A DNA stretch of 64,000 bases from Scilla litardierei (taxonomy: Eukaryota; Streptophyta; Magnoliopsida; Asparagales; Asparagaceae): the NCBI GenBank assembly GCA_030789695.1, contig CM061141.1, positions 279,069,871 to 279,133,870 on the forward strand. Direction: 5' to 3'. Both the position numbers and the translations under genes were made by a program. Within the stretch, counting starts at the first letter, position 1. Each line of letters begins with the position of its first letter. Positions 12,010-52,831 of the stretch are shown in pieces. The notes below the pieces were generated by a model. That model was not told where the DNA came from and made no database searches. It worked only from the letters and a program-made list of their open reading frames with translations.

Positions 12010-12060
12010 TCCTCAGATTACTATCCGTTGGAAATTGACCTAACTTGTTTTTATGGGACC

Positions 12061-12070
12061 CTATAAATAC
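12061..12070 (+). promoter_or_regulatory. E1 TATA box
   Basis: CTATAAATAC directly after GGGACC, about 50 bp beyond the last fold-back. Conserved at 31105-31114 in the 3' LTR and 58713-58722 in E5. Transcription should start roughly 25-35 bp downstream. Confidence 0.75.
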
Positions 12071-12823
12071 GAACCTAGGTCATTTCTATCTAGGTTAGAG
12101 CTGCCATTAAGAGATTCATTGAGATAGAAAGAGATAGCCATTCTCACTCATTTCCAAAGCTCTCTTCCTCACAAGAAACCCATTCTCTCACATTCTAGAT
12201 CTAGAATCCATCTTGAGAGAAGCTTGTTCTTGGTGAGCCCTTCAAGCTCTAGCTTGAATCAAGTCTCCAAATCTCTCCTAGGCACCCATTGCTGGTCATT
12301 TCCTTGGTGCTAGGTCTTGGTGACTTCATCTTCCTCAAATCCTTCCTTTCACCTATTGGGTAAGAAAAACTCAAGGTATATGATTTTGTGGTAAAATTGT
12401 TTATTTCATTATAAACTCATTTATATTTCTTGTTGATTCTCTCGGTTGTGAGAGAAGGTTGTGATCCCAGGTTGTGGGATTCACTATTGCCGTTGCATGT
12501 ATGATTTGATCTTGTGAAGGTTTTTCACAAGATATTCATAGTGGAAATCTTGGGTTAGGGTTTCTAACCTAAGTATCCGGAGGGGATCCGGGTGGTTGGG
12601 ACGTAGGATCACCGGGAACAAGTCGGGGAGACTTGGGTGGATCCGAACCCATTAACATCATTTGTTAGCATTGTTAATTTTGTTGTTGTCATTCAATTTA
12701 AGCTTCCGCAAATTGATTTGGTAGTTGTTTGCACTATAATTTGGAATTATACTCCTTGTTATTTTTAAAGTACTATTCACCCCCCCTCTAGTACTTGTGC
12801 AGTAGCTTGTAGGGCATTACATT

Positions 12824-12836
12824 TGGTATCAAAGCC
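12824..12836 (+). promoter_or_regulatory. E1 primer-binding site
   Basis: TGGTATCAAAGCC two bases after the LTR end. It differs by one base from TGGTATCAGAGC, the usual copia PBS complementary to the 3' end of initiator tRNA-Met. Confidence 0.85.
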
Positions 12837-19409: not shown

Positions 19410-19674
19410 ATGGCAAAGACGAGGATCCCTATCACTTCATCTGGGGCTTCCCCCATGACTGTAGAGCCTTCTAACCCTAGGAATCCGTCTAAGCCCAAGC
19501 GTCGTGCTAAATCTACCCAAGCTTCTCCGTCTTCGCCTCCTCTGAAGAAGCAGAGGACGGCGACGGTCAAACCCCGAAAATATAAGTCTAAAAAGCCCAT
19601 ACTCCACACTCCCTCTACTCCTCCTGATTCCGATACTGAGTTTATCCCTGAGGATGACTCTGGCCATAGGGAAC
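19410..19674 (+). pseudogene. E1 third ORF, N-terminal part (cut by E2)
   Basis: Starts at ATG 19410 right after the duplicated leader. The 88 codons before the E2 insertion encode a basic, proline/serine-rich stretch with two lysine/arginine clusters (KPKRRAK and LKKQR) that look like nuclear localisation signals, then an acidic stretch. The frame runs into the E2 LTR and stops at 19715. The original continuation is at 27765-29153: the last 31 bases before E2 are repeated after it and the frame matches. Function unknown; see the C-terminal part. Confidence 0.8.
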
Positions 19675-22495
19675 TGTCACGCCCCGCTTCCCAAAAACGT
19701 GGAGGCGAAGCGTGAGAAGGTCCGCTCAGACTTGAAGCTACAAAGCCGCAAGTCCGATAAGCGTCAATCACTTTAAACTGCAGGTCCTTGCAACGCGAAA
19801 CGAAACAAAGATAATAATAACGAAAGAGACAAAAAGAACATCTCAGAATATCCATAATAATAAATCTCAACAACGCAGAAAAGCCACCAGGCTACAAATA
19901 AAAGAGTCTAAAAAGAGGCCTAGCATGGCCAACAAAAGTACGAAAACAAGGAAAAGGTGCAAGCACCGACATCTAACAGCAACCTAAAGCAAAGCAAGTA
20001 AAATCAGTCTCTAAGACTGGTCTCCGGTGTCCTCGAACTCCTCAACGAACGTAGGCTCGGGCTCAACGTCAGCAAACACCTCGTCCTCAGCAACCGTCTC
20101 TGGCTCAGGGTCTAACATGTGGCACCCAAAAGAGCAAGGGGCACATGTCAGCAAGTCTGGAAGACTTGTGCAAGTGAAACTGAAAGGTGGTAAAAGTAAA
20201 GCAACCTAGCAGTTCTAGCATGATGCAATGACATGGCAGTTTAAAGAAATGAGTGCAACAAGTAGGGTAAAGTAAAGTAAAGTACGAGCATGGCATGACA
20301 TTCACAAGACAAGTACAAGACAAGAAAAGTAAGCACCTCGTGCACAGAGATTCCGTCTTTTGGCTAGAGTGGCTGCGCGGGCCAACTCCTAAGCTCAAGC
20401 GAACGTTTATCCCTACCCCTCCACGTGTGTCGAGCCAGGGCCTTACCCCCGAACGGTAATGCTCGCTTCTGGACCACGAGCCAGGAAGTGTGTAAACAAG
20501 TATGGCGTAGGGGTGCACCTAGCCCGGGACAAGCAAGTACAAGTATGTAGCGTGTGCTACGAATGCAACATTCAATGCATGGATGACATGACATGGCAGT
20601 TAAAGTAAAGCGTACAGGTAAGGAAAGTAAACGTGACAGTTTAGCATGCATGAACAACAATTTTAAGGGGTTGGATCTAGCTTCGTTGTCAAGCTAGATC
20701 ATTTAGGTGACGGATCTAGTTTCGTTGTCAAACTAGATCAAGTAGGCGTCTAGCCAGCTATCATTTCACTGACTAGTCTCTTTTACGCTAAAAGCAAGTA
20801 AGTGGCCTAAAAACATGGCCCTACACAAAGTTGGCAAGTTTCACTTGCCTGCAACTATCACGTCAAGAAAACACCGTCCAACGAGTCCAAAGTCACGATT
20901 CCTACGTGCACAAGTCCACCGGCCTACATCCGTTTTATTAATCTTGATTAGTGGATTCTAAACATTTAAAATACTTTAAAATACTGATTTTAGTCTTGAT
21001 TAGCATGCAATTGGGTTGGGGGTCCTAGGGGTGGCAAAACGTTACCTCAACACGACGCGAAAGCTACACCGGCGTCGGGTAGCGACGCCGGGGGTTGGAA
21101 TAAGAGAACGCGCTCCAAGTCCTGTTTCCAAAATAGATTCCTCGCTGGAAAATCAGAGAAAATATCCCGGGCGACGATTCCAAATTCCAAAGCTCGTACG
21201 TGCGACGACGGGCTACGACGTGCGACGACGTCGTACGCGGCAAGTCGTCGAAGAGAACGTACCAAAGTGGGGCCCACAGTAGTCCTAGGGACCTTTGGGG
21301 AACCCACAATAACTCCGGAGAACTTGGGGGGCCCACGGAGGCAAGCGGTGCGACGGATGCGGGGTTGCGACAAGTGGCCGTCGGTCGTACAGCTTCGGTG
21401 CGGGGATCTCCTTCGGTCAGACACTAGGGAACGGCTGTTGCAACGTTTGGGGGTCGGTCACGGCCTTGGTGCGGTCGTTTCCCTCGGTCAGACACGGTGG
21501 AGGCCTCGGTCAGGCGCTTGGGTGCGGGGTTGCAGCGTTGCAGCGATCGGGCGCTCGGTCACAGCGGGCGGGGCCTTCGGTCGGGCACGGAGCGGAGCGG
21601 GGCGACAGAGCGGGCGACAAGCGGGTCGGTGCGGTGCGGAGGGTCGGGCGGTTCTCTCGGTCTGACCGAGAGGCCCTATCGGTCAAGCGGGGGAACGAAG
21701 CGGCGGGGTTGGTGCTGCGGTGCGGAGCGACGAGAAAGCGGGCGGGGCGAGCCGGTCAGAGCGGGTGGATGCGGGGGATTTCCTCGGTCGTGCGGGGTGC
21801 TGAACGTCGCAACGTTGCGACGATTCGTCGCAACGTCCAAGATGACTTTGGAAGAGGCTAGGGCTAATTTCTTTGGAAAAATAGGACTTGCTAGGGGTTG
21901 CTTATATAGTATAGGGGGGGTTGACTTGGTCTAGGGCTAAATCTAATAGGATTAGAATTCAAAAAGATTTGAAATTTGAATTTAAACTTCTCCAACCCAA
22001 TCTAGGATTTGACCTGGTCCAAATGAGCTGGAAATTGGCTCAAAAATTCCTTAAAACGTTTAAAACTCAAATAAATTTTATTTGGCCGAAATTAATTGAA
22101 AAATAAATTATTAAAAATAATATAAAACTTGTAAAAATTATAAAAGTGGTCAAATAAACTCCAAAAATTATAAAATAAATATCGTGGTGTTCGTGGCGAC
22201 GAATGTGAGCTAACTAAGAAGACGGATCTCAAATTCGACGTCGGACGACGAAACTAAAAATAGAAACGTCTCCCGTCAAAAGTGAAAATCGTCACGTCTC
22301 ATCGAGTGAGTTTAAATTGTGGGAAAACGACTCGAGAAGTGTCGTTTCAAGGTAGTGCCACTATTTAATACTCTCAGAGACGTTCGCAACGGCATATCAC
22401 ACAAGAGTGTTCACAATCAAATAAAGTCTAAAATAAACACGTGTACGGCCAAAAGCACGTGCACGAACAACGCACAACGAAAAGTGGTCGTTACA
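19675..22495 (-). repeat. E2 3' LTR (complete)
   Basis: 2,821 bp. A GC-rich CG-dense part (about 21050-21840) has many TCGGTC words and a 25-bp near-perfect palindrome at 21812-21836 (12-bp arms). On the minus strand a TATA box of the form CTATATAAGC lies near 21905. The right end TTACA abuts a minus-strand PPT (22496-22510, AAGGTGGGGAGGA within it). Confidence 0.9.
20674..20739. repeat. Pair of covarying hairpins in the E2 LTR
   Basis: Two hairpins 39 bp apart share the loop CGTTGTC. Their stems are GATCTAGCTT (20674-20683) with its complement (20691-20700), and GATCTAGTTT (20713-20722) with its complement (20730-20739). The one stem difference is compensated on the other arm. The pair is repeated at 26040-26105 in the other LTR. 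Confidence 0.8.
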
Positions 22496-23784
22496 TCCTC
22501 CCCACCTTAGAATAAAGTCCGTCCTCGGACTTTCTAATATAACTAGTCGCTCTAGTAACTACCCCAATCAAGCCATATAATAATTTAACCAGGTTTATTC
22601 ATTTCAAGTGCTTATATATGCACTAGATAGTCAAACGTTAATACCACTAACACGTGTATATATACATTCACATACGTCGTATACTTATACCTATTATTAT
22701 TATCACACCTAGACTACATATAGTTTCACCAGCACATTGCTTCAACCATTATAAGTATCCCCTAATTACCTACAGCCTCTTAAGTACTTCTACTCTAAAT
22801 CTCACAGGCATCCTTAGTATGGTATAGCTACCCACACACCAAACTATAACTACTAACATACAAACAACTTCACACATCATGAATAACTCCGAATATATAT
22901 AACACTCAATAAGCAACCATTAATATACCATGGAGGGTACGCTCATTCAAGCCAACATATGCGGAATTTGAAAACCGTTCGTACTTCAAAAGTTGAAATC
23001 CTCGTTTGGAAGAAATATTTGGAGATCGATAAGACGTGTTGTTTCAAAATAGGTTTGGGTCGAATATTCATAATAAGAGAAAATGGTCCATTGGTTTTAA
23101 AGAATCATTAAAAGAGGAAGTAAAATCATTTACACGAATATTGAAGGCGTAGTTTAGAAAATATTATACGGCGGTAATTTAATATAATGTTTGCGAAAGT
23201 CAAAGAAGGAAATCAAGTAACGGAAGAATTTAAACTCATGTTAAATGCCTTCAAAACTTTTAGGTCATGGAAAATTTTAAAATAATCAATATTGAAGCTG
23301 CTTTTCAAGGGAACCAGGGTTTGCAAAAATTCAAAACTGGTTTACACAAAATGCTTGCAGAAGATTCAAAATTTTGCAACGGAGAGTTTCAAAAATTGAT
23401 GACGATAGTCATGAGCGATCTCGGGAATCGGGGCAAGGGAAACAGTCAGATGTTCAAAACATACATACACCTAGGATATGAATCAGGGGGATCTACGGGG
23501 AAACTCCTACGGTCGCCCAACTGAAGCTTAGGACTTGGCGCTTGGTCTTTCTAAAGGAGCTAGGCGATAATGGAATGCGCTCAGCTCGGTCCATAATCGA
23601 TGAACCCAAACGAACGACTAAAGGAATTCTAGAAGTCTGGTATGGTCAGGGGTAGGCAAGGACCACTAAAGTAACTCCTATGACGATTAAATCGATTCCC
23701 AGCAAGGACTCTAATTACCAGCCTAACAGTCAACCTTATTTGCAAACAATCATATGCAAGCATAATTTAACAAGTCAGGACTAA
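22496..23784 (-). other. E2 internal region downstream of gag
   Basis: About 1.3 kb between the end of gag and the 3' LTR where pol would be expected. No reverse transcriptase, RNase H or integrase motif is seen in any frame. The PPT is at its left edge. The short plus-strand open frame 23267-23524 has no recognised domain. Confidence 0.6.
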
Positions 23785-24894
23785 CTAAGGGAAGAAACAA
23801 CTAGATCGAGAGTTACCTGCGATAACCTCATCCACAGTCTCGCCCTCCACTGCCGTCATCAGGTAAGCCTGCCTCCTCGGCTGCACGGCCTGCTGAAAGG
23901 CCTGCCTCTGCGGAGGAAGAGGCGCTCCACGACCTGCAGGTGCAGGTGCTCTCTGTTGCAACGGCTGTGCGGCAACAGGATCCTTCCAAGGTATCTTAGA
24001 GCTCGGGCAGTCCTTCACAGCATGAGTAGGATCTCCACAAACTAGGCACTGTCCCAACATCTTCCTACACTGATCCTTGAAATGCCCGGTCTTGCCACAG
24101 AAATGGCAAGTCTTCACAATAGGCCCACCTGGCCTCTTGAACTGCACTGGCTGGGTAGGCTTGACCCCAGGCCTAGACGGCTCCATAGGCCTCTTCCCAG
24201 CTCCAGAAATCAGTCCTCTCTTCTGCTTTGCAATCTTCTCCTGTCTCCGAGCAGCTACCAGCAACTTCTGATACGACTCCATGTCCGACGTAGACACCAG
24301 ACTCTGCAAGTCTAGAGAAAGACCCTGCAGAAACTTCTGAGCCTTCTCCTCAGCATCCTCTACCATCTTTGGCGCGAAGCGGCTCAATCTAGTAAATTCC
24401 TGGTGGTACTGGTCCACCGTCAGACTCCCTTGCTTCAGCTCAATGAAGCGCTGCACCATCTCCCTCCTAGCAGCCTTCGGAAAGTACTCCTCATCGAATC
24501 TAGACTTGAAAGTAGCCCAAGGTATAGGGCTCACCAACAACTCCTCCTCGGCATCCCACCAATTTCGGGCATTATCCTTCAGCTGCCTCTTCACCAGATC
24601 AACCCATCCAGCCGGGTTGACCTTCGACATCTTCAGATTATCCTCGGTGTTCCTGATCCACTCCTCTGCAGCCAACGGTCCTTCAGATCCATCAAAGTAC
24701 GTCGGGCCCAGCTCCCGGAACTGCTTCGCTCCTGGCTCATGGCGAGGAGCACTCTGAGTGTTCTGGAGCATGCCCTGCTGTACCTGCATCATCTGATGCA
24801 TCATCCTCATGATCTCAGCATTGGTGGGCTCTCTATCAGGTACCTCAGCACGATTGGGCCCACTGCCAGATCGGGTCTGTCGTCGTCCAGCCAT
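23785..24894 (-). CDS. gag: E2 Gag (369 codons)
   Basis: Ty3/gypsy Gag of the kind found in plant chromoviruses. The N-terminal part is glutamine/methionine-rich. The retrotransposon gag domain spans residues about 75-215, including FDGSEGPLAAEEWI and the WWDAEEEL and FIELKQGSLTVDQYHQEFTRL motifs. Two zinc knuckles follow (CHFCGKTGHFKDQC and CLVCGDPTHAVKDC, residues about 272-305), then a proline/glutamine-rich linker. The frame ends a few residues after TVDEVIAG, where a chromovirus protease would begin, so the protein is cut off at the Gag-protease border. No internal stop is present. Confidence 0.9.
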   Translation of the reverse strand: MAGRRQTRSGSGPNRAEVPDREPTNAEIMRMMHQMMQVQQGMLQNTQSAPRHEPGAKQFRELGPTYFDGSEGPLAAEEWIRNTEDNLKMSKVNPAGWVDLVKRQLKDNARNWWDAEEELLVSPIPWATFKSRFDEEYFPKAARREMVQRFIELKQGSLTVDQYHQEFTRLSRFAPKMVEDAEEKAQKFLQGLSLDLQSLVSTSDMESYQKLLVAARRQEKIAKQKRGLISGAGKRPMEPSRPGVKPTQPVQFKRPGGPIVKTCHFCGKTGHFKDQCRKMLGQCLVCGDPTHAVKDCPSSKIPWKDPVAAQPLQQRAPAPAGRGAPLPPQRQAFQQAVQPRRQAYLMTAVEGETVDEVIAGNSRSSCFFP

Positions 24895-25042
24895 CTAATG
24901 ACGTGGAAAACGAGCAAACAAATTAGACTCAAAGCTTAATGACTTGGATGTTGCAATTTATTTAATGGATATTCCGTTTATTATCGTTGTTCCGTTAGTT
25001 CGCAATTGCAAGACTGGACCTGCATGGGCCACCAACAAAACC

Positions 25043-27734
25043 TGTCACGCCCCGCTTCCCAAAAACGTGGAGGCGAAGCGTGAGAAGGTCGCTCAGACTT
25101 GAAGCTACAAAGCCGCAAGTCCGATAAGCGTCAATCACTTTAAACTGCAGGTCCTTGCAACGCGAAACGAAACAAAGATAATAATAACGAAAGAGACAAA
25201 AAGAACATCTCAGAATATCCATAATAATAAATCTCAACAACGCAGAAAAGCCACCAGGCTACAAATAAAAGAGTCTAAAAAGAGGCCTAGCATGGCCAAC
25301 AAAAGTACGAAAACAAGGAAAAGGTGCAAGCACCGACATCTAACAGCAACCTAAAGCAAAGCAAGTAAAATCAGTCTCTAGACTGGTCTCCGGTGTCCTC
25401 GAACTCCTCAACGAACGTAGGCTCGGGCTCAACGTCAGCAAACACCTCGTCCTCAGCAACCGTCTCTGGCTCAGGGTCTAACATGTGGCACCCAAAAGAG
25501 TAAGGGGCACATGTCAGCAAGTCTGGAAGACTTGTGCAAGTGAAACTGAAAGGTGGTAAAAGTAAAGCAACCTAGCAGTTCTAGCATGATGCAATGACAT
25601 GGCAGTTTAAAGAAATGAGTGCAACAAGTAGGGTAAAGTAAAGTAAAGTACGAGCATGGCATGACATTCACAAGACAAGTACAAGACAAGAAAAGTAAGC
25701 ACCTCGTGCACAGAGATTCCGTCTTTTGGCTAGAGTGGCTGCGCGTGCCAACTCCTAAGCTCAAGCGAACGTTTATCCCTACCCCTCCACGTGTGTCGAG
25801 CCAGGGCCTTACCCCCGAACGGTAATGCTCGCTTCTGGACCACGAGCCAGGAAGTGTGTAAACAAGTATGGCGTAGGGGTGCACCTAGCCCGGGACAAGC
25901 AAGTACAAGTATGTAGCGTGTGCTACGAATGCAACATTCAATGCATGGATGACATGACATGGCAGTTAAAGTAAAGCGTACAGGTAAGGAAAGTAAACGT
26001 GACAGTTTAGCATGCATGAACAACAATTTTAAGGGGTTGGATCTAGCTTCGTTGTCAAGCTAGATCATTTAGGTGACGGATCTAGTTTCGTTGTCAAACT
26101 AGATCAAGTAGGCGTCTAGCCAGCTATCATTTCACTGACTAGTCTCTTTTACGCTAAAAGCAAGTAAGTGGCCTAAAAACATGGCCATACACAAAAGTTG
26201 GCAAGTTTCACTTGCCTGCAACTATCACGTCAAGAAAACACCGTCCAACGAGTCCAAAGTCACGATTCCTACGTGCACAAGTCCACCGGCCTACATCCGT
26301 TTTATTAATCTTGATTAGTGGATTCTAAAACATTTAAAATACTTTAAAATACTGATTTTTAGTCTTGATTAGCATGCAATTGGGTTGGGGGTCCTAGGGG
26401 TGCAAAACGTTACCTCAACACGACGCGAAAGCTACACCGGCGTCGGGTAGCGACGCCGGGGGTTGGAATAAGAGAACGCGCTCCAAGTCCTGTTTCCAAA
26501 ATAGATTCCTCGCTGGAAAATCAGAGAAAATATCCCGGGCGACGATTCCAAATTCCAAAGCTCGTACGTGCGACGACGGCTACGACGTGCGACGACGTCG
26601 GTACGCGGCAAGTCGTCGAAGAGAACGTACCAAAGTGGGGCCCACAGTAGTCCTAGGGACCTTTGGGGAACCCACAATAACTCCGGAGAACTTGGGGGGC
26701 CCACGGAGGCAAGCGGTGCGACGGATGCGGGGTTGCGACAAGTGGCCGTCGGTCGTACAGCTTCGGTGCGGGGATCTCCTTCGGTCAGACACTAGGGAAC
26801 GGCTGTTGCAACGTTTGGGGGTCGGTCACGGCCTTGGTGCGGTCGTTTCCCTCGGTCAGACACGGTGGAGGCCTCGGTCAGGCGCTTGGGTGCGGGGGTT
26901 GCAGCGTTGCAGCGATCGGGCGCTCGGTCACAGCGGGCGGGGCCTTCGGTCGGGCACGGAGCGGAGCGGGGCGACAGAGCGGGCGACAAGCGGGTCGGTG
27001 CGGTGCGGAGGGTCGGGCGGTTCTCTCGGTCTGACCGAGAGGCCCTATCGGTCAAGCGGGGGAACGAAGCGGCGGGGTTGGCGCTGCGGTGCGGAGCGAC
27101 GAGAAAGCGGACGGGGCGACCGGTCAGAGCGGGTGGATGCGGGGGATTTCCTCGGTCCGTGCGGGGTGCTGAACGTCGCAACGTTGCGACGATTCGTCGC
27201 AACGTCCAAGATGACTTTGGAAGAGGCTAGGGCTAATTTCTTTGGAAAAATAGGACTTGCTAGGGGTTGCTTATATAGTATAGGGGGGGTTGACTTGGTC
27301 TAGGGCTAAATCTAATAGGATTAGAATTCAAAAAGATTTGAAATTTGAATTAAACTTCTCCAACCCAATCTAGGATTTGACCTGGTCCAAATGAGCTGGA
27401 AATTGGCTCAAAAATTCCTTAAAACGTTTAAAACTCAAATAAATTTTATTTGGCCGAAATTAATTGAAAATAAATTATTAAAAATAATATAAAACTTGTA
27501 AAAATTATAAAAGTGGTCAAATAAACTCCAAAAATTATAAAATAAATATCGTGGTGTTCGTGGCGACGAATGTGAGCTAACTAAGAAGACGGATCTCAAA
27601 TTCGACGTCGGACGACGAAACTAAAAATAGAAACGTCTCCCGTCAAAAGTGAAAATCGTCACGTCTCATCGAGTGAGTTTAAATTGTGGGAAAACGACTC
27701 GAGAAGTGTCGTTTCAAGGTAGTGCCACTATTTA
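25043..27734 (-). repeat. E2 5' LTR, outer 126 bp missing
   Basis: Matches 19675-22369 almost base for base, including the hairpin pair (26040-26105), the TCGGTC-rich GC segment, the 25-bp palindrome (27181-27205) and the minus-strand TATA near 27268. It stops within ACTATTTAAT, 126 bp short of the LTR end seen at 22495. The PBS should lie just left of 25043 on the minus strand, but I could not match it to a tRNA with confidence. Confidence 0.88.
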
Positions 27735-27765
27735 ATCCCTGAGGATGACTCTGGCCATAGGGAAC
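27735..27765 (+). repeat. 31-bp duplication of third-ORF sequence flanking E2
   Basis: Identical to 19644-19674. LTR elements normally duplicate about 5 bp. The join to the LTR falls in shared AT/TTTA bases (LTR TTTAAT, target TTTAT), a microhomology junction. Confidence 0.9.
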
Positions 27766-29153
27766 CTACTCCTCCACTTCGTCCTAGGACTCGCCAGCCT
27801 AAGGGAAAGGGCCCAATGCCAGCGGGTGGTGTTGACATATCGTTGTGTCGCGATGACCCTATGTGTCTAGCGGCCTACAACCGTATTGAACACTGCCCGA
27901 TGCTATTGGAGCACTATGTTCAGTTTTCAGATTTCCTTGGCTTAGCTGATCTTCTCTCCTATAGTGGCCTATTGGATTATCTTCGCTATGACCCCAAGGC
28001 GAATCCCAGACCTTATCCTCGCCTGGTCAAATTATTCTATGTCAATCGTGTTCGGGGCCTGTATGATGAGAGTCACTCCATCGAGACTACTGTCTTAGGA
28101 ACTCCTATAGTTCTCACGGCAGATATCTTGGGGGAGATACTTGGTTGTTCGTCGTCTGGTCTCCTTCCGTCGGATATTTCTGTTGATGATATCTCTTCCT
28201 TGGATCAGTCCATTCTTTCTGATATCTTCCATATGATCCCTCCTACCCTCATTGGTGTTCCTTCGAAGTCGTTCAAACCTAATGCATGGGTGCTTAATCT
28301 CATTCTGAAGTCGTGCTTGCTTCCCAAGTACGGCTCATCTTCTCTGCCATCCCAGCCTTTTCTCAAGCTGATTTACGCTCTTTTCTTGGGATGCGAGATT
28401 AATTGGGCTCGCGTTATACTCGATAAGATGGACTCTTTCGAGTGTATTCACAAGACCAATAAATCTGCGCATATCCCTTACCCGTGTCTGTTGACCCTGG
28501 TTTTCCGTCATTTCCGTGTTCCTCTCCCTCCTGACGATGAGCGTCCTTTGGGTCCTCCTCTGAACGCGACGGCCGTTAAGAAATCTCTTGCGGCGCTTCG
28601 TCATGTGCAGAGGTCGACCACATCTGCTTCCCAGGCCACTCCCTCAGCTGTTGCTGCCCCCACTCCTCCTGCTACATTAGATGATGTCGTACGCCTTCTT
28701 CGTCGGCACGAGTCGCGTTTGGCTCGTACCGAGGAGGTCGTCTGCCGTATGGCTCGTATGATGGGCATTGATCTTCCTCCTTCCGTTTCTGAGGCCGAGG
28801 AGATGGACGATGAGGAGATTGATGATCTTGTCACTTCCTTAGCTCGTGGCGATGAGGCCACTGCTGCTGCTGCTGCTACCACTTCTGCTCCTGGAGTTGG
28901 CACCACTTCCGGTGCTCCAGAGCCTTCTGCTTCAGTAGTTCAGCCTTCTGAGGCTGCTGTTGATCCTGTTGACGAGCCTGCTCCTATCTTACCTGCTGTT
29001 ACTCCTGTTGAGACCCCAGCTGTTGAGCCCGTCGTCGTTTCCACACCTGCCCCGACGATCCCGTCTGTTGACACGCCTCTCCTTCCTGCAGAGCCTGAGT
29101 CCACTCTGTCAACTGGACCCACAGAGAATGCAGATCCAGCCACTTCCTCGTGA
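27765..29153 (+). pseudogene. E1 third ORF, C-terminal part (putative plant transposon-type domain)
   Basis: Continues the frame interrupted at 19674. Without E2 the product would be about 550 residues. The central part (about 27860-28600) contains RLVKLFYVNRVRGL, VLGTPIVLTADILGEILG and a hydrophobic FLKLIYALFLG stretch. It resembles the 'putative plant transposon protein' domain found in many plant element-associated proteins; this match is from memory and unverified. A short region around DDVVRLLRRHESRLARTEEV is heptad-like. The tail (from about 28860) is low-complexity alanine/proline/threonine/serine. It occupies the position of the envelope-like ORF of Sireviruses, but I see no signal peptide, and the N-terminus has nuclear-type basic clusters. 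Confidence 0.7.
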
Positions 29154-30098: not shown

Positions 30099-30112
30099 AA
30101 AAAGGGGGAGAA
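30099..30112 (+). promoter_or_regulatory. E1 polypurine tract
   Basis: AAAAAGGGGGAGAA directly against the 3' LTR start at 30113; primes second-strand synthesis in LTR elements. Confidence 0.9.
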
Positions 30113-31865
30113 TGTTGAATATTGGACTCCCCGGATTTGGTTTTGATGATGAGCAAACGTAAATAATCCATGAACTAACAATTTGTGAGCGCAGTATTGG
30201 AGATCGTCGCCAAATTCACGAGAACAATCAAAGCGACATCTCAAGACTTCTCAAAGCTCGTATTCATGCCTAAAGCTTTATTGAAGCTCTTGCGCCGTTT
30301 TGGAAGTCATGAAGATTTAATCGAAGCTTTCGAAGACCGTTCTTTAAGGTTTATTTATAGTCTTTTAAGCTTCGATCTATAGAATGTTAAGCCTTGAGTA
30401 TATCTTACGTTTCTATCTTCATAACGCTCATGTCGTAGCTCTAGGATCTTAGTACAAGTTCATTCTAACTTCCTCGAAGCGTCGCGCTTCGATTCGGACT
30501 TGTTTGTGCATGTTAGTTGGTACAAGAAGAAGTACTGACCGACTAGATGGTGATGTAGTCGGTCAGCAGAGCTTCTTGGACCGACTAGTTTGATTCCTTA
30601 ATTTCTTGTTCAGTACTGTTTACAGTTAGTCGGTCTACGTTGACTCACCGACCGACTAGTTTGTGAACTAGTCGGTCAGTGATGCTTCTTTGACCGACTA
30701 GTTGTGACTTACTGTTCATACTAAATTTCTCCTAAGCTACTGTTTATCGTTAGTCGGTCTAAGAACGTTTGGTGATCGACTAGTTGACAATCTAGTCGGT
30801 CAACTTTTGTTCTTGGACCGACTAAGTCAATTTGTATTCAGACTATTTCATTTTGCCTCTTAGTCGGTCTACGTTCACTGACTGACCGACTAGTTGTGAA
30901 ACTAGTCGGTCAGAAAGTCTTCTTGGACCGACTAGATTTCTAGGTCTGAATTTCTATCTCTTCTCAGTTCCTCTCTTAGTCGGTCCATGTTGATTGACTG
31001 ACCGACTAGTTGATGAACCAGTCGGTCAGAGGTTGTTCTTTGACCGACTAGTTTCCTCAGATTTCTATCCGTTGGAAATTGACCTAACTTGTTTTTATGG
31101 GACCCTATAAATACGAACCTAGGTCATTTCTATCTAGGTTAGAGCTGCCATTAAGAGATTCATTGAGATAGAAAGAGATAGCCATTCTCACTCATTTCCA
31201 AAGCTCTCTTCCTCACAAGAAACCCATTCTCTCACATTCTAGATCTAGAATCCATCTTGAGAGAAGCTTGTTCTTGGTGAGCCCTTCAAGCTCTAGCTTG
31301 AATCAAGTCTCCAAATCTCTCCTAGGCACCCATTGCTGGTCATTTCCTTGGTGCTAGGTCTTGGTGACTTCATCTTCCTCAAATCCTTCCTTTCACCTAT
31401 TGGGTAAGAAAAACTCAAGGTATATGATTTTGTGGTAAAATTGTTTATTTCATTATAAACTCATTTATATTTCTTGTTGATTCTCTCGGTTGTGAGAGAA
31501 GGTTGTGATCCCGGGTTGTGGGATTCACTATTGCCGTTGCATGTATGATTTGATCTTGTGAAGGTTTTTCACAAGATATTCATAGTGGAAATCTTGGGTT
31601 AGGGTTTCTAACCTAAGTATCCGGAGGGGATCCGGGTGGTTGGGACGTAGGATCACCGGGAACAAGTCGGGGAGACTTGGGTGGATCCGAACCCATTAAC
31701 ATCATTTGTTAGCATTGTTAATTTTGTTGTTTTCATTCAATTTAAGCTTCCGCAAATTGATTTGGTAGTTGTTTGCACTATAATTTGGAATTATACTCCT
31801 TGTTATTTTTAAAGTACTATTCACCCCCCCCTTAGTACTTGTGCAGTAGCTTGTAGGGCATTACA
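30113..31865 (+). repeat. E1 3' LTR
   Basis: 1,753 bp, the same length as the 5' LTR, with about ten substitutions by eye. It contains the fold-back array 30537-31051, TATA at 31105-31114 and the stem-loop string of about 31481-31695. The target duplication ATTCA follows at 31866-31870. Confidence 0.95.
31481..31695 (+). repeat. String of small stem-loops in the E1 R/U5 region
   Basis: Consecutive inverted repeats: 31481-31500 (TTCTCTC/GAGAGAA), 31508-31524 (ATCCC/GGGAT), 31553-31577 (ATCTTGTGAA/TTCACAAGAT), 31594-31616 (TTGGGTTAG/CTAACCTAA), 31619-31637 (ATCCGG/CCGGGT), 31664-31678 (AAGTC/GACTT) and 31679-31694 (GGGT/ACCC). Loops of the first two contain GGTTGT. The equivalent string in the 5' LTR is about 12461-12652. 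It lies downstream of the TATA box and so is in the RNA leader. Confidence 0.7.
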
Positions 31866-33290
31866 ATTCAGAGATAACGTCACCTCGCAGACGTCAATCA
31901 AGACATCGGCCGACGCCATGAATGGACGACCCAAAATGATCTATGAACTACCTTTCTCTGGCATGTCCATAATCACAAAATCTATCGGCACGCATAGCTC
32001 AGTCGGAATTTAAAGGATGATGTCGCGTGAGATGCCTACCAGATATGTAATAGAGTGGTCTGCCAACTGAATGCTCATATCTGTAGGCTTAAGCTCCATC
32101 CCGGTATTTAGCCTCTTAAAGATGGAGAGCGACATCAAACTAATGGTCGCTCCCAAATCAATCAACGCTCTGCTAATAGGGGTACCGCCAACGGAGCACT
32201 GCACCATGAAACTCCTGGGATCCTGGAAATTCTTCGGTAGATGGTTCTTAATAACTGAGGTGCAATTGTCCAATAGCTTCACCTCTTCTTGTTTATGCTT
32301 CCTCGTAATGAGATCCTTTAAGAATTTAGTGTATGTGGAGATTTCCGTGATAGTGTCCATAAAGGGGATGTTCAGTTGTATACCTTTGAGGAGCTCGGAG
32401 AACTTGGCGTATTTATTCCCCATCTTCGCTAGTGCCAACCTTTGGGGATATGGAGGTGGAGGTCGATTTGCTTTGTCTTTGGCGGCATCCTTTGAAATAG
32501 AATTGTTGGAAGTAGTAGTAGCATCTGCCAGTGCCGTAGTGGTGGTAGGCAAGGTAGATGGTGAGGCCTCCCTCTCTACAATAGCATAGGGCTCCTCTGT
32601 ATCCTTTTCCTTGTCATTTTCAGCTGTAGTAGCATCTCCATCTTGAGCATGAGTAGATGGCTTTCGGCTCAAATTGCTAGAAACTGGCACCATGACAGTG
32701 TCGGTAGTCTTTCCTCCTCTCGTGGTAACTGCGACCACTGCATTTTCTTGGGCCCTAAGATTGGGCTCCGACTGAGAGGGAAATCTCCATTGCATCTTCA
32801 TGAATTGGGACATTTGGCCCTCAAGATCATCGATGGAATCATTGATAGACTTGAAACGAGTGGAATTCTCTGCATTTATATTGGATTGCCCACTCATGGA
32901 GGTGTCCAATGTTGCCTCAAGATTGGGCTTTGGATCTGCTGGTGAATATTGTTGTTGTTGACGGTAATTGTACCCGGGTGGTCTGTAAGGCCTAGATGGC
33001 CTAAACCCATATTGTTGCAGAGGCGCCCCTTGTTGCTAAGGAGGTGGTGGAGGTCTCTGCTGCTGAGAAGGTTGCAGTCCTCTATTCAGATTGCCATATG
33101 AAAATCTAGGATGATTTCTCACCGCCAGATGTTGCCATTGATTCCTCCCCTCTCCAGCTACAAAGTATACCTGCTCAGCTTGCATGTCTGCTCCATCATA
33201 TGATTCTTTGTTAAGAGCATAACCTTGCTCCGCATAGCCTTCATGTGTGAGATAAGCTGGAGCTCTAGAAGTGGTTGGAATAGAGTCCAA
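31866..33290 (-). pseudogene. E0 gag C-terminal and aspartic protease region
   Basis: Minus-strand frame running from 33290, with a stop at 33036-33038, open again to 32010, then stops at 32010 and near 31957 before the E1 insertion. It contains a glutamine/proline-rich gag tail, an acidic linker, then LIDLGATISLMSLSIFKRL, the protease active-site segment in the Athila style (DLGA), followed by QLADHS. Past 32010 it reads IILGRPFMA, typical of the protease C-terminus, and continues across the E1 target into 11068-10746. Confidence 0.8.
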
Positions 33291-41401: not shown

Positions 41402-43435
41402 CTTCTCACCGACAGCCCCCCCTCCATTTCTCAGTCCCCTTTCTTTCTCTTGCTCTTTTGCTCTCTCGCAGGCGGCGATCAATCGAACAACCGACAACGC
41501 CCCGAATTCGTCGATCGCCATTAATTTTGAGCCATATATTTTCAGATCTACTCTCTTCTTCAATTTCCTACAAAAACTGTCAGTATACTCTAAATTTTCT
41601 AAAGATTTAATTCGGTTTTCTTCAGATTTTGGAGTTGATTCTTGTAGAAATTCCTTGGATATGTGCTGATGATTTCGGTTCTTTGATTTCTTTGGTTCAT
41701 CAGCAATTTTATGATAGATCCTATCTTCCTCATGCTTCAATTTAATTTCAGTTTCATTATACGTAAATCTTGAGATGAATCATTGGTTAAATTGTGCAAA
41801 AAATGGATTTTTATTAAAGATTGCTAGGGAAAGAATGATATTGGGAAATATCGTTTTAGGTTTTGTTTTCCTTGATTTGTTGTTGTGGGGTTGGTTTCCT
41901 TCCTACTTGGCTTGTGGTCTAGGGTGTTTATGATGGTTGTTTCTGGGGTTCTGCTGGCTGTTTTGGGTCTGCGCTGGCTGTTTTTGGGCTCTGCTTATTG
42001 TTTTTGGATTTGGCTTGTTTTGTTGTTGCTGTTTTGGGTTCATGTGTGGGTTATTTGGGATTTGAGGCTTCCCTACTTCGCTGTCTTTGGTCTCTGGTCC
42101 TGGTGACTTGATGCTCAGACCACAGTCCTTGTGGGCCTTGACATGGCTCGGGTTCCCCCACAACGTGATGAAAAACTCAAATCTGATCCCTCTGACCGAA
42201 ATTGTTAGAAGTGCAAAAGATTACAGATTTCAATTTCTATTTTAAAAATAAATGTTGTTATATCCCTTGTTCAGTTGTGCTTCTGTAAGAGTAATTTTCT
42301 TTTAATGAATGTTAGTTTAAAACTAAAATTTAAAAAAAAATATTCCTTCTGGAAAATTGTTCTATGCATGCAGAGCTAGAAAGTTTAATGGTATGTCTAA
42401 ATTGCGTAGTCCAGGGGATGTTACTCTTGATGACACTGATTATGAATAGCTTGTATATGGAAATTAAGAATTGACTCATGATATGTTTTGGTTGCTACTA
42501 CATGTGCGTAAATCCGATTTATTGCCCGTTAATCCCCCTTAATTACGTAGTTTAAAAATAATAGTAAACTTAGATAACTTCTGATAGGCATCACTATACT
42601 TGAAATGATGTTTTTAGCATGCAAACTAGAGACTACTGAAAATCTAGACACATCTCCCGATATGAACATAGCACATGAATACTAACGAAACAACTTCACA
42701 TGACTCACGGGGGGGTTTGGAAAAACTTATAATTGAGAGAGTGCGAGAGTGATTGGAGTCCTTCTTTTAGCCTGTATCTGAGAGGATTTCCGGCTATATA
42801 TCCTGAGTCTCAATCACAGTTGACTTCTAGACTAGACCTAGGGTAGCGCCCCACGGTCCAAGATGGTTTTCGGGTTGCACATTGTGATCTCCGTTATAAG
42901 TGGCGATTTAGATTTAGTCAACTTTAATAGTACAACTTTATAGTAATTTGATGACATTGAAATAAGCATAACATGCTACATTTTTGTATGTACCATTTAT
43001 ACATGTTCTCCACTATACTTCTTTGTTTATGCACCATGATTATTATTGTTGCTTGGTTAGATATAATCTACTCTATTGAGCAATGGTACCACTCCTGTTG
43101 TTGCCACTAGGTGATGAATAGGAAAACACGGAGGCACCTGAGTACGAGAAGTCGGAGGTTCCGATTCTCGACACTGGGTTTTGAGGGCCAATTGATAGTG
43201 AGTGTTCTTGATAGTTTCATTTCCATGTATTTACGTTTCAGCTTTAGAGTGAGATTGTTCTTTTATTTTTCTTGTACCGAACTTTTTAAACCTCATATGA
43301 AGGTCATGAAATGGAAAGAGTATTTTAATTCTGTTAATTTTTGCTCTGCTCCACATTGTTTTCAGCTTTTCACTGGTAACTACAGGACCTGCATAAATTG
43401 TACAAAAGTGACTGCACCCGGAACGGGGCGTTACA
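41231..43435 (+). repeat. E6 3' LTR
   Basis: 2,205 bp, TGTAATG...GTTACA, following a PPT. It contains a (CT)n run at 41350-41397. The short open frames inside (for example 41885-42106, 43111-43569) have no recognisable domain and are not called. Confidence 0.82.
41350..41397. repeat. (CT)n microsatellite
   Basis: Uninterrupted CT run of about 24 units inside the E6 LTR. Confidence 0.95.
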
Positions 43436-44050
43436 CCTACTACAGTCGACTGTCCTGCCATAATTACCCTCGCATTTACCTGCTTTTATATCCGTTGATA
43501 GGGGCTTATTGGTCATTTTCTAGAACCCAATTATGTGCCTGTATATTGGGGTTCGATGACCCGTTTTAGCAAGAATTAATTGAGCCATATTTTGTAGAAA
43601 ATATAGATGAAAAAGAAGATGAAAAAGAGAGAAAAATTCTAAATTCATAGCCTCACACATACAGGTTGTGATCATCTTCTAAGGCTAAAAGGAGGTAAAA
43701 AGTGTAAGTTGTAATCTTTATTCTTTCTTCTCTCTTTGTGAGAGGTGGTGTCTCTTTTGTGAGACATGTTGTCCAATGCATTGGACGCGTTGTTCCATTT
43801 GAAACGTGTGTCTCATTTGAGACGTCTTATAATCCCGAAGTATAATGGATTAGATCCTATTGAGAACGTGTGCTGGATGAACCCAAATTGGGAAACCGGT
43901 GTAAATCATGTCTCTTTGTGATTGTGATTTGTGCTTGCCTTGTGATTTTGCTACGGCATTTAATTTGAGTATTACAAGTTATTTTATTTGATTAGGTTAT
44001 ATTTGGGTAATTCCATTTTATAATCTAGGTAGATTATTAAACGAAATTTT
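43436..44050 (+). repeat. LTR remnant L2, Sirevirus-like (internal fragment)
   Basis: Begins with a CAGTCGACTG palindrome near 43443. A stem-loop string lies at about 43731-43830: CTCTC/GAGAG, TGTCTC (43749-43754) with GAGACA (43761-43766), GTCCA/TGGAC, GTCTC/GAGAC. It then shows the GGATGAACCCAAATTGGGAAACC motif region, similar in order to LTR remnant L1. It lacks the C-rich end and TTACA, so both ends are missing. E4 begins immediately to its right. Confidence 0.6.
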
Positions 44051-45564
44051 TGTTGAGTATTGGACTTCTCCCTACTTGGTGTTAATGATGAGAAAACATA
44101 AATACTTGTTACTAATCCCCTATTTGCAGTTAATCCATTGCCTAGGCATATCTTGAAGATCAATTAGCAATGGATGACATCAAAGATCAATGAAAGAAAG
44201 AGAAACGAATTGGATAATCAAAAATTGTGATTGAAGCTCCTAAAAGACTTCAATCTCATACGTTGGATAGAAGAGAGAGTTCTACAAATGTAATCTTCTT
44301 TTTCTCTTCTAGTATGTAGCTTAGAAGTAGAACTATGTTGGAGCACATACACATCTTCATTTCAGCCTTAGGATATTATTATATCAACTTTTCTTAGACT
44401 CCAATTCATTTCTATCAAGAATGTGCATGTTATGATTTCAACAGTCGATTGCAGAACGATTTTCAGTCACCAGTCTTAAAACAATCGACTGTGTTTTGTT
44501 CTACAGTCGCTTGTTATGCATATACTTAATCAATTGATTTTTGGGCTTTATAAGCTTTAAATCTATCAGACGACTGCTGTACATTTCACAGGCGCAGACA
44601 GTAGACTGTGATTTGTTAATCAGTCGCATGTGTATCTTCAGCCCAAGATCATACTCTGTTTGATCTGGCCAGTCGACTGATGTTGTATTTACAGTCGCCT
44701 GTCTAAGGACCAGTCGACTGTAAATGCTTCAACAGTCGATTGTCCATGATTCCTCTGCAGAACTTGCTCTCTGGAATATTTCTTATTCTAGTGCCAGCCA
44801 ACTGATGTTGTATTTACAGTCGACTGTCCAGTGGCACAGTCGACTGTCAATGCTTCAACAGTCGTCTGTCTTTGAGCTTTACTATAGACTCAACTCTCTG
44901 GAAAATGTCAGGGTTTTTGACAGTCGCATGTAGAAAGAATTACAATCGCCTGTTGGATTTACAGTCGACTGTCTTCTCTTCGTCAGTCGCATGTTCTGTA
45001 TTTCCAGACGTTTCTGAGACTTTCACAACTTACCCAAATTGCGGCCAGTCGCCTATAGAAGGAATTACAGTTGCATGTTGGATTAACAGTCGAATGTCTT
45101 CTCTTCATCAGTCGACTGTCCATGTGGTAAGTTACCGTTTGAATACTCACCTACCCTCTGACATAGTGCAGCAATCGACTGAGTTTTGTTCAACAGTCGA
45201 CTGTCGCGTGTGCAAATTCTATTTGTTGAGCTTTTCTCCACGGATTTCACAGGGGCTTTTGGGAATTTTGTTTGAGGGTTTTGAGAAAACTATAAAGCCA
45301 GCCTCTACTGTTCCATTGAGAGGTTACTCACTTGAGATTCATTTTGCTCAAATATTCAAGCTTTCAATCTTCCAAGATCAAAGCTCTCAAAATCTTAAAT
45401 CCCTAGAATTCCTATCTTTCATCTCTTGCTCTCCAACCTAGAACCAAAGAGAAATCTTCTAGGCATTTGGTACAGTCAAGAGAAAGGGCTTTTCTCCCTT
45501 CAAGAGAGTCATTCAACACACAACACACTCTCTTTCAAGTTCTACTTCAAGGCAAAGGTGATTG
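44051..45564 (+). repeat. E4 5' LTR, first part
   Basis: U3-like part with about twenty CAGTCGACTG-type words (44440-45210). A TATA box CTATAAAGCC lies at 45290-45299. It stops at GATTG (45560-45564), which is the E3 target duplication, and resumes at 55220. The open frame 44872-45441 has no recognisable domain. Confidence 0.82.
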
Positions 45565-46850
45565 TGTAGGAGAATATGTGCCCATAAGGCAATTTATCCA
45601 GATAAACGTCTTGTTCATACAGTATATGGTACGTATTATTCTAAGTATAATAAAATCGTTCGTATTAATATACTTAGATAATATCCATAGACTTATTGTT
45701 AGGTCCTTATGTATCTAGATGAGATCTCGATTATGAGTAAGTAAGCGACCGAATAAATAAACATAAGTCTTAAACGGTTCATGGTTATAGATGTGTCGAG
45801 AACTGCATATCGACACATCGGATAGACCATTGTGTCTTGGTCTTACCTTAGGGTAATGATGATCTCATAGTCATTCGACTTGGTGAAGTCAGAGACGAGA
45901 CACAGGTGCTCATTAGAAAATGAGTTCCCTGAACGGCCACATGAGAGTTATTAAATGGTTGACTTTAACTGAACTGTCTTTAATAACTCTAGGGTGATGA
46001 TAGGTTAGCTGGTCCTTAAGACCTGAAGTGATTTTGTACGAACCTGTGAGCGAACCGTGTAGCTTAGACCTATGATCTAGCTTCGAGGCTTGGCCTGCTG
46101 AAAGATCTTAGGTTGAGCTGCACCCGAAGCTCTCGAGGCGAGTAGATGACTAAGATGGGATTCGTCACTTCCGTTAAAGGGAAGTCATTGTTACAGGCTC
46201 AGTACGGTCTTTATGTTAATCCTCGCCCGGGGTGCGTTGTAAGAAGTACAACGCGTATACTATAAAGACCGCAGTATACTGACCAATGTTGTCTAATAGG
46301 GTTGACAGTAAACCATACCCTAGGCTAACAAGAACACAGTCTTGACGAAGGGACTACAACTAATGAATTTCATCACTGACACAGCCAATGTAAACCCCAT
46401 GATACTTTTGTCAAAGGGTCGATCACGTTATGATGATTCTGAAACAGGGACGACAGCTACTGCTTGTAGTGACCGTCGTCTAGGGGTTCCGAGCCCCAAC
46501 CTGTAGTAAGGTCAGGCTGTATGGTCTCACACCGAGTAGTGTTCGTGTCTTAGTAATAGGAAGATTAATTGAGAGAAAATCATTTGATGATATTCACAAG
46601 TCAAGTAGTGAAAGTTAGTCGCAATAGCAATGGGGACAAACGTTGCATTTGATGCAAAATATGATTAAACGTGTCGTAAATTGGTTACGACAAATTTAGT
46701 AGGAACAAACTTGTTGGAAAGGGTTACCTGGATGACGGGATCGTCCCGGTCTAAACACAGGTTCAAACCGTGTCCAAATCGGAGCTCAAACGAGTCCGGA
46801 AACGCAAAAACGGTCCAAGGAGCAGTGGGTGAGACCCACTGGGCTACAAG

Positions 46851-47704
46851 TCAACATGGCCACCGGGCCAGCCCGGCCCGGCCCGAAGCCCGCCGGGCTT
46901 GGCCGGGCCACGGGCCGGCCTGGCCCGGCCTGATTTAAAGGCCGGGCCGGCCCGGCCCGGCCCGGGGGGGGGGGAGGAAACCCCCCAGGCCCGGCCCGCG
47001 GCCCGCGGCCCGGCGGGCTGCGGGCCAAGCGGGCCGGGCCCGGGCCGACCCGGTTTTTAATTATAAAAAAATTAAAAATTTTAAAATTTTTTTAAAAATC
47101 TGTAAAAATCATATTAACTCATTATAAATTTTTTTAAGAGTAGTATAATATTTTATATGTCTTATATATTTTTTTAAAAAATTTAAATACTTGTTATCTA
47201 ATGATTTCTTATTTGGAACAGAGAATTATAGAGAAATTTGAGAGTAGAGAATTTTAGATTTGTGAAGATATTGGTATGAATGGGTGGGGTATTTATAGGA
47301 TTTCTTAAGCCCAAAAAGACCAAAATAACCCTCCAATATGACCGTTTTATGGCTGTTGGGGCTGTTTTTTGGTCATTTTGGTCAAAATTGACCAAAATAC
47401 CCCCCCCCCCAATTTAGCTGTTTATAGCTGTTGGGGGGTATTTTGGTCAAAATGACCAAACCCCCCCCAACAGCCATAATATGGATGTTGGGCATGGGGG
47501 CGGGCCGGGCGGGCCGGCCCGGCCCGGCTTCCGGGCCGAGTCGGCCCGGCCCGGCGGGTCGCGGGCATGGAAAATGCCCGGCCCGCCGGGCGGGCCGGGC
47601 CTGGTCAACGGCCCGGCCCACGTTGACCGGGCCAGGCCGGACCGGCCCGAAACCCGGGCCGGGCGGGCCGGGCTTCGGGCCGGCGGGCCATTTGGCCACC
47701 TTGA
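46851..47704. mobile_element. hAT-type MITE (Dart/nDart-like), 854 bp
   Basis: Present in the 5' LTR of E3 and absent from the 3' LTR, where the empty site GCTACAAG is intact (54110-54117). The insertion is flanked by an 8-bp duplication GCTACAAG (46843-46850 and 47705-47712), the hAT size. The ends are imperfect inverted repeats: left TCAACATGGCCACCGGGCC; right, read inward, TCAAGGTGGCCAAATGGCCC. The right end resembles the rice nDart terminus as I recall it (TAGAGGTGGCCAAACGGGC). About 190 bp at the left end and 210 bp at the right are dense GGCCC/CCGGG repeats around an AT-rich core. There is no transposase, so it is non-autonomous. Confidence 0.85.
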
Positions 47705-47734
47705 GCTACAAGGCCCATAGACAAGGGAAAACGG

Positions 47735-47905
47735 GCGCAGCCCGCTGACTGCAGCGGGTGTACGCCCGCTGCACGGCGGGCGCAGCCCGCTGCACGGCGG
47801 GCGCAGCCCGCTGCAGCAGCGGGCACGGCCCGCTGGCTGCAGCGGGCAGGCGGCCCGCCCTTGCTCCCTTGGGCAGGCGCCCGCGTGCCTAGCGGGCGCG
47901 CCCGC
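47735..47905. repeat. GC-rich GCCCGCTG minisatellite
   Basis: Irregular repeats of GCGGGCGCAGCCCGCTGCA-like units in the E3 5' LTR. The matching stretch in the 3' LTR (about 54135-54260) has fewer and diverged units, so the array has changed since insertion. Confidence 0.75.
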
Positions 47906-48846
47906 AACTTAAGTCAAATTTAGGGTTTTTGAAACCCCAAATGACGGCTACGGATTTTGACATTTTGCTAAACTTTGAGCAATTGTTTGAGGGGTCAAAC
48001 GAAGTCGAAATTCGTCACCGTCGGTTCCTACGCGTTCACCATTCGAAGCTTTTCGAATTGATATCTTGTTTGGTGTCTGAAGTTTAATGTGCAAGGAGAA
48101 TTAATTAGTTAAAGTTTGCTTTTGTGAAAAGCTCACTTTAATTTGAAATTAAGCCAAATTGGCTTAATTGAATTTTCCCTCTTGCGGAATGTCCCACATT
48201 GCTCGCAACGAGAGAGTGAGTGCCGACTCCCTATATAAATAGGGGTGCACTCTCCTCGTTGAAAAACACACCAAGCCATCGATCGAGTAGCTCCAGATTT
48301 TTAGATCAAGCTCGATCGGCGACTAAATTCTCTCTCTCTCTTCCTGTTCTCCGGAGTAGTCCTAGCAAGACTACGAAGGGGGTTTGGATTCTTGATCCGG
48401 ACGTCTAAGACGCGGGTTCTTCTCAAGTGAAACTTTCTACCGCGTGTGATCGGCTCGGAGGCGAAAGTCAGCTCGGGCGGATCGGTGCGAGGGTGCGAGG
48501 CGGCTCAGGCGGTTCGAGTCAAAGCGGCTCGGGTACGAGGAGCTTCTGAAGACGGTGCGGTACATCTTGCCTGCTCCAGAGCCAAGATTCCGGGTATGTG
48601 GTTAAGTAATTTGTAGTGTAGATTTAATTAGTCGCTTTAGAGTAGATCCCTCTTGGGATGGTCAGATCCACCCCAAGTTGGCATAGATCGGGCTGGGTTC
48701 TGGCTCCCCAGAGCCTGGCTAAATAGTTTACCCAGTCTGGAAATTTTTGAATTTCTGTTTTCCGCTGCGCATTCGCGCCTCTGTGATCCGTCCGACTTAG
48801 GACGGACACAGATCCGAGCTCTGGGGGTCCGCCTAAACCCCAACAG

Positions 48847-48858
48847 TGGTATCAGAGC
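48847..48858 (+). promoter_or_regulatory. E3 primer-binding site
   Basis: TGGTATCAGAGC, one base after the LTR end: the standard complement of the initiator tRNA-Met 3' end. Confidence 0.92.
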
Positions 48859-52817: not shown

Positions 52818-52831
52818 GTGCAAGTGGGAGA
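52818..52831 (+). promoter_or_regulatory. E3 polypurine tract
   Basis: AGTGCAAGTGGGAGA-type purine-rich tract directly before the 3' LTR start TGTAGGAG at 52832. Confidence 0.75.

Follow-up and report, generated by a model that had tools for sequence, protein, structure and literature searches.

Several long terminal repeats (LTRs) of Sirevirus-like retrotransposons in the window, by which we mean the whole 64,000-nucleotide stretch of DNA, carry a row of small inverted repeats. Are these repeats an RNA structure that selection has kept in the leader of the elements' transcripts, and what might such a structure do?

Host elements and the hairpin string

Nested plant LTR retrotransposons fill the window. 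Between the LTRs of the element that we call E1 lie a pol frame and gag, with domain matches to Retrotran_gag_2, zf-CCHC and RVT_2, and 24 nt lie between the end of the 5' LTR and the gag ATG (12849).

11068-12824 and 30112-31868: LTRs of E1, 1757 bp long, with 99.4% mutual identity
12849-15089, + strand: gag of E1, copia-type, with one CCHC knuckle
57720-59477: LTR of E5, a relative of E1 at about 91% identity

E4 represents a third lineage, and its 5' LTR is split just before its GTAAG by another LTR element (45565-55214), an insertion flanked by GATTG target copies at 45560-45564 and 55215-55219. The end of L1, near 1471, has a C-rich signal. L2 occupies about 43300-44046; by eye, the start of E4 appears to cut it, and positions 44047-55636 consist of nested insertions, with E4 apparently inserted in L2. 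Nested in E1 is a second LTR element (19674-27736) with 2.7 kb LTRs that are 99.3% identical, and a downstream E1 frame of 476 aa (27723-29153), in the place of a third Sirevirus gene, matches PF20167, a putative plant transposon protein.

Passages of PMC2829016 describe the repeated motifs, polypurine-tract (PPT) repeat, TATA box, LTR junction and C-rich signal of Sireviruses. E1 combines a copia-type gag with CCHC and a large LTR. The primer binding sites of E1 (TATCAAAGC) and E4 (TATCAGACC) each differ by one mismatch from the Sirevirus sequence TATCAGAGC, and the junction between LTR and primer binding site, CA/ATTGG in Sireviruses, is CA/ATTGG in E4 and CA/TTTGG in E1. By eye, E1 has a Sirevirus-type PPT: AGGGGGAG precedes the 3' LTR and CTCCCC follows just within the LTR, which makes an inverted repeat round the PPT/LTR junction, and another GGGGGAG lies upstream, so that the polypurine tract is present more than once. 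Palindromic CGG/CCG motifs (9 CGGTC and 10 GACCG) fall at positions 224-931 of the E1 3' LTR, with TATA near 995, and the C-rich integrase signal lies near the LTR end in E1, E5, E4 and L1. The string itself is distinct from the near-identical palindromes found upstream of TATA in Sirevirus U3, because it lies downstream of TATA and its stems differ from one another.

The initial annotation had placed seven consecutive small inverted repeats in E1, the same order of elements in E4, and further hairpins in L1 and L2. The stems that it quoted are present where it put them, in six or seven units by our count; E4 has the hairpin order of E1 over 55263-55478 with altered stems, and L1 (984-1304) and L2 (43727-43900) also carry hairpins. 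To that reading we add a shared loop word, a GTAAG upstream, an ACGUA/GAA internal loop and an inverted repeat round the C-rich signal. The row is found in E1, its close copy E5, E4, L1 and L2, with about 5 to 13 hairpins per element.

31481-31695, + strand: full string in the E1 3' LTR, six or seven units
31481-31500, + strand: hp1, stem TTCTCTC/GAGAGAA, GUUGU in the loop
31505-31528, + strand: hp2, stem GTGA-TCCC/GGGA-T-TCAC with a bulged T, GUUGU in the loop
31553-31577, + strand: hp3, stem ATCTTGTGAA/TTCACAAGAT, loop GGUUU
31593-31617, + strand: hp4, stem CTTGGGTTAG/CTAACCTAAG, loop GGUUU
about 31618-31638, + strand: hp5, stem CCGG/CCGG, identical in E1, E5 and E4
31641-31695, + strand: P6, terminal stem-loop with the ACGUA/GAA internal loop and an inner hairpin
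12437-12651, + strand: string copy in the E1 5' LTR
59087-59299, + strand: string copy in E5, one P6 pair broken
55263-55478, + strand: string of E4, hairpin order as in E1, stems changed
984-1268, + strand: string of L1, 13 hairpins, repeated U.G pairs
1277-1304, + strand: terminal stem-loop of L1, AUGUA/GAA internal loop
43727-43823, + strand: string of L2, loops including UUUGU, UUUUGU and AUUU
43872-43900, + strand: terminal stem-loop of L2, AUGAA/AAA variant
31812-31840, + strand: P7 of E1, inverted repeat AAGTACTA/TAGTACTT round the C-rich integrase signal
12768-12796, 59415-59449, 55585-55614 and 1413-1435: the enclosed C-rich signal in the other copies

The outer stem of hp2 reads CTTG/CAAG in E4 and has the bulged T there too. 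The terminal stem-loop closes the string with ACGUA/GAA in E1, E5 and E4 and with the variants listed above in L1 and L2. Scanning the window for ACGUA/GAA gave + strand matches in L1 and both E1 copies only, and one A/T-rich match on the - strand; E5 and E4 fall below the scan threshold because of one mismatch each, and both were read by eye. P7, an 8-bp inverted repeat with the C-rich signal in its loop, reads AAACACTA/TAGTGTTT in E4, shows a double change in two pairs when E1 and E4 are compared, and has a shorter stem in L1. Passages of PMC2829016 describe the polyC-rich Sirevirus integrase signal as a linear motif, whereas here it is contained in P7, inside an inverted-repeat loop.

The six string copies hold 25 UUGUG words (TTGTG in the DNA), of which 16 cap stems of at least 5 bp: 7 of 9 in L1, both in L2, 2 of 4 in each E1 LTR, 2 of 4 in E5 and 1 of 2 in E4, the E1 and E5 copies being non-independent. 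Elsewhere the word caps a stem in 2 of 85 cases on the + strand and 3 of 64 on the - strand; inside the strings the - strand has none in three, and 12 copia-bearing contigs from bacterial records have 4 in 175 over both strands. The 13 L1 loops comprise UUUGU (six), UGUGU (four), UAUGU, CUUGU and a 3-nt loop (one each), and 12 of them fit NNUGU. In both E1 and E4, the loops of hp1 and hp2 contain GUUGU, the ends of which may pair, and those of hp3 and hp4 contain GGUUU, GGUU or GGUUG.

Paired changes, conservation and strand

We counted non-overlapping hairpins with stems of at least 5 pairs (at least 2 G-C, at most 2 G.U) and loops of 4-7, and compared each string with 600 random windows of equal length. 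On the + strand, L1 has 12 such hairpins, a number that none of the 600 windows reaches; the 3' and 5' copies of E1 have 6 each (reached by 5 and 6 windows), E5 has 6 (10 windows), L2 has 5 (9 windows) and E4 has 5 (19 windows). The corresponding minus-strand counts are 5 for L1, 7 for each E1 copy, 6 for E5, 6 for L2 and 4 for E4, so that a clear strand difference is seen for L1 only. Local folding, with pairs at most 36 nt apart, gives 13 hairpins in L1 plus the terminal one.

Folding z-scores on the + strand are good, not extreme: -4.57 and -2.39 for pieces of L1, -4.26 and -1.85 for pieces of E1, -5.40 and -1.95 for pieces of E4, and -4.27 for L2. The E1 piece at -1.85 (31612-31704) is matched by 10 of 200 shuffles. 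By z alone the string is not singled out, its + strand windows ranking between 24th and 288th of 848, behind the U3 palindromes. Competing pairings are predicted for the part from hp4 to P6 in both E1 copies and E5: hp4 and P6 as drawn are absent from the local folds of E1 3' and E5 and from the folds of E1 5' and E5, and the non-local fold of E1 3' does show both.

The comparison between E1 and E4 carries the case for conserved pairing. When the two E1 copies, E5 and E4 were aligned by sequence only, an alignment that puts hp3 one base out of register, 95.0% of cells pair. Six pairs are changed on both sides. Shuffles give 1.5, with none of 500 reaching six, and sliding the partner gives 0-3; further pair types are no more numerous than one might expect (50 of 500 shuffles reach the observed number). 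A model in which the two arms change independently predicts 2.2 double changes (p 0.023), and 47 of 58 pairs are kept against 40.6 expected (p 0.035, with two gapped pairs dropped). Anchoring the helices on their loops raises the counts: 66 of 68 E1 pairs are also paired in E4, 14 of them through a double change, two of which are the P7 pairs. Of the two pairs lost in E4, one is changed on one side and the other on both, and two further pairs are present in one lineage only. This loop-anchored count was made by hand, takes in P7, which lies outside the string, and was fitted to the structure, so the sequence-only count is the conservative one.

Decoys with free offsets agree for the set as a whole: over seven helices, with substitutions drawn from the fitted arms, 48 of 49 pairs are formed against 37.9 in decoys, and none of 3000 decoys reaches that number. 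Taken singly, four of the seven helices are not unusual in this test, the fraction of decoys that reach the observed value being 0.11 for hp1, 0.61 for the outer stem of hp2, 0.89 for P6a and 0.27 for P6b. For each of the six helices tested, pairing between arms is better within E1 or E4 than across the two, though by a narrow margin for P6 and for the outer stem; for hp3, the values are -12.3 and -15.1 within lineages versus -5.4 and -4.6 across. The earlier proposal that pairing is kept while sequence changes is supported, with 6 paired changes against 1.5-2.2 expected, in a single comparison of two lineages. Shuffling arms within L1 gives a weak result (56 pairs against 49.8, reached by 268 of 10,000), as expected from inner stems that are alike, and L1 is therefore left out as evidence of covariation.

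Constraint on the sequence points the same way. Between the E1 3' LTR and E5, the string is identical at 208 of 213 positions (97.7%) and the other four LTR segments jointly at 1405 of 1535 (91.5%; Fisher p 0.00085, with gap columns, 2 and 17, set aside). It is the best conserved of the five segments, the next being the one directly after it (163 of 172). Inverted repeats that arise through local mutation or template switching and have no function are nonetheless a possible source of such rows, and L1 units 1053-1071 and 1072-1088 are near copies, so local duplication does occur. Against this explanation stand the hairpin order kept between E1 and E4 with compensated changes and the conservation of the string between E1 and E5, which exceeds that of the remaining LTR; we hold it to be extremely improbable.

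Whether RNA is what has been kept depends on the strand. L1 (940-1330) folds at -137.0 kcal/mol on the + strand and at -71.4 kcal/mol on the - strand, and in a fixed register round its 15 TGTG words, not every one of which lies in a hairpin, stem positions hold 15 G.U against 1 A.C. RNA is thus favoured there. The difference in folding energy is smaller in E1, E5, E4 and L2; by z-score the - strand does better in E1 and L2, and in sliding windows it also does so in E1, E5, E4 and one of two L2 windows. It is therefore L1 only that indicates the strand, and with it RNA as the thing kept.

These strand results bear on a reading of the repeats as palindromes that act in DNA, by binding protein or as a source of small RNAs, in the manner of the Sirevirus U3 repeated motifs. 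Palindromes abound in Sirevirus LTRs (passages of PMC2829016), and both strands fold in E1 and L2, with the minus-strand advantage just described. Action as DNA nevertheless leaves out the strand bias of L1, where U.G pairs become A.C mismatches on the opposite strand, and the string lies downstream of TATA with stems that are not copies of one word. We regard this reading as very unlikely. A selected RNA structure in the leader, as the initial annotation had proposed, is highly probable: the paired changes between E1 and E4 and the constraint between E1 and E5 uphold selection on the structure, and the choice of the + strand is the part indicated by L1.

Leader signals and possible function

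The string had also been assigned to the transcribed part of the LTR. This is supported for E1, L1 and E4, in which a TATA box lies upstream, 375 nt (31106), 280 nt (704) and about 316 nt (45291, insertion excluded) from the string, respectively; a scan for TATA[AT]A found none for L2. A GTAAG, a candidate 5' splice site, precedes four of the five strings, by 46 nt in E5, 44 nt in E4, 36 nt in L1 and 23 nt in L2.

31106-31111, + strand: TATA box of E1, TATAAA in CTATAAATA
59041-59045, + strand: GTAAG of E5, candidate 5' splice site; others at 55219 (E4), 948 (L1) and 43704 (L2)

E1 has GTAAAA at the matching place, and its nearest GTAAG is 77 nt away (31404; 12360 in the 5' LTR). The chance of a GTAAG 20-50 nt upstream of a random site is 0.027, for a range chosen after seeing the data, and the splice-donor scores use a consensus sequence.

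These positions would suit control of splicing, in which the string, at the start of a leader intron that begins at GTAAG, keeps part of the RNA unspliced. The sequence after GTAAG is T-rich (39-57%), and if transcription is taken to start 30 nt past TATA, no ATG comes before GTAAG in E1 (269 nt) or E5 (268 nt), nor in E4 over the 244 nt up to the insertion. The departure of E1 from GTAAG, the post hoc range, and the three ATGs in L1 and four in L2 before GTAAG weigh on the other side; the candidate acceptors near the LTR end are CAG or TAG words. Splicing control is, on balance, quite unlikely.

The length of the E1 leader, about 760 nt from the assumed start with only three upstream ATGs, could instead suggest that the string governs translation of gag through internal entry, shunting or a brake. 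The upstream open reading frames have 2-6 codons, and the E4 string is without an ATG; ribosome shunting, considered for the short E1 frames, was dropped for the latter reason. We give translation control a very low probability.

The sequence after the strings is also T-rich (40-46% T), and the loop word resembles a plant poly(A) upstream element. By showing UUUGU(G) many times over, the loops could act as a far upstream element and favour 3'-end formation in the 3' LTR; according to passages of PMC10082929, UUUGUA recurs in the far upstream elements of plants. The loops of the string are not UUUGUA itself, however, and those of E1 and E4 are GUUGU or GGUUU. No need for hairpins is known in far upstream elements, so poly(A) control leaves the covarying stems unexplained, and it seems unlikely.

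The initial annotation had named packaging, translation and avoidance of silencing as possible functions. In maize, small RNAs are reported to accumulate over the hairpin regions of Copia elements (passages of PMC10760457), and avoidance of silencing therefore fits badly. The reading that we prefer, tentatively, is a multivalent protein-binding signal in the leader, most likely for recognition by Gag and packaging. The string would be a cis-acting RNA element in the transcribed R/U5 of Sirevirus LTRs, in which short hairpins display recurring loops, commonly (U/G)UUGU or UGUGU with a closing G after it, and the row precedes the stem-loop with the ACGUA/GAA internal loop. We infer that the element's own Gag might recognise its genomic RNA multivalently, its CCHC knuckle binding the exposed U/G loops, and that the row could serve as a signal for packaging, perhaps dimerisation. 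The putative 5' splice site just upstream would then keep the signal off spliced RNA. With only 24 nt from LTR to gag ATG in E1, a leader signal must sit in R/U5 or in gag. A uniform loop read by Gag is at odds with the GGUUU, GGUU and GGUUG loops of hp3 and hp4, with the AUUU of later L2 loops and with the wide variation in hairpin number.

A more specific form of the Gag-binding signal would be a retrovirus-like switch: the LTR leader would hold a conserved splice donor and, directly after it, a multivalent array of hairpins with UUGU loops for Gag to read, only unspliced RNA would be packaged, and the array would gain and lose hairpins under constraint on its loops rather than its stems. 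We consider this combination unlikely.

Known systems and wider searches

Retroviral packaging signals comprise several leader hairpins with exposed short motifs, near a splice donor. The string shares the leader position, the multiple hairpins with short exposed motifs and a candidate donor nearby, but it belongs to R/U5, ahead of the primer binding site, and Gag binding is putative here. The terminal stem-loop recalls another known motif, the bulged-G (loop E, sarcin-ricin) internal loop, in its GUA opposite GAA in E1, E4, E5 and L1; the likeness is one of sequence, the stem-loop has one extra pyrimidine, and L2 departs. Among LTR retrotransposons, Ty1 is copia-type. Structures for packaging and dimerisation lie at the 5' end of Ty1 RNA, according to passages of PMC5454406. 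This leader (TIPIRT) gives a precedent for a structured 5' end in the RNA of an LTR retrotransposon; it is built of a pseudoknot and two kissing hairpins, whereas here hairpins with shared loops, about 5 to 13 in number, stand in a row. Within the same genus, the repeated motifs of Sirevirus U3 and the inverted repeat at the PPT are likewise palindromic non-coding sequence, but they are placed before TATA or at the PPT itself (passages of PMC2829016), whereas the string lies downstream of TATA.

The word "hairpin" has no occurrence in the main text of PMC2829016, and the parts of that source that we cite describe no R/U5 string. Among the matches listed from the open-licence literature, there was no hairpin string in Sirevirus R/U5 and no Sirevirus packaging or leader RNA element, and Rfam gave no match in the whole window at the gathering score. 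Viral contigs scanned with the LTR motif, the degenerate reverse transcriptase (RT) pattern and the P6 pattern gave none for each. With the RT piece, 12 stretches in viral contigs matched the pattern and 33 stretches were found in genome contigs, with none confirmed in either set. The degenerate RT pattern did find 12 contigs in bacterial records (L001-L012; Streptomyces, Labilibacter, Solirubrobacter and others) with 34-49% GC, and the copia RT in them is probably eukaryote contamination. Neither the hairpin string nor the C-rich LTR signal was found on either strand of these 12 contigs, apart from one dissimilar C-run match in L011, and an ACGUA/GAA scan of their RT strand gave none. In three of them (L003, L005 and L007) we looked at a junction resembling that of the primer binding site. 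The junction in L007 (position 7102), CA/ATTGGTATCAGAGC, is Sirevirus-like, and the preceding 750 nt hold no UUGUG string or C-rich signal; this Sirevirus-type junction without the string would count against the generality of the string.

Sireviruses account for a large share of some plant genomes, 21% of maize B73 according to passages of PMC10760457. Given a compact, repeated and covarying element that has a loop word, packaging or RNA processing of plant retrotransposons would become directly testable, and the hairpin string would be a landmark for the annotation of R/U5. Citrus LTR primers listed in PMC7876178 include GACGTAGGCTAAAAGCCGAACCA and carry a stem-loop of like form, GACGTAGG...GCCGAACCA. 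The terminal stem-loop may therefore extend beyond Sireviruses and be common to many plant LTRs.
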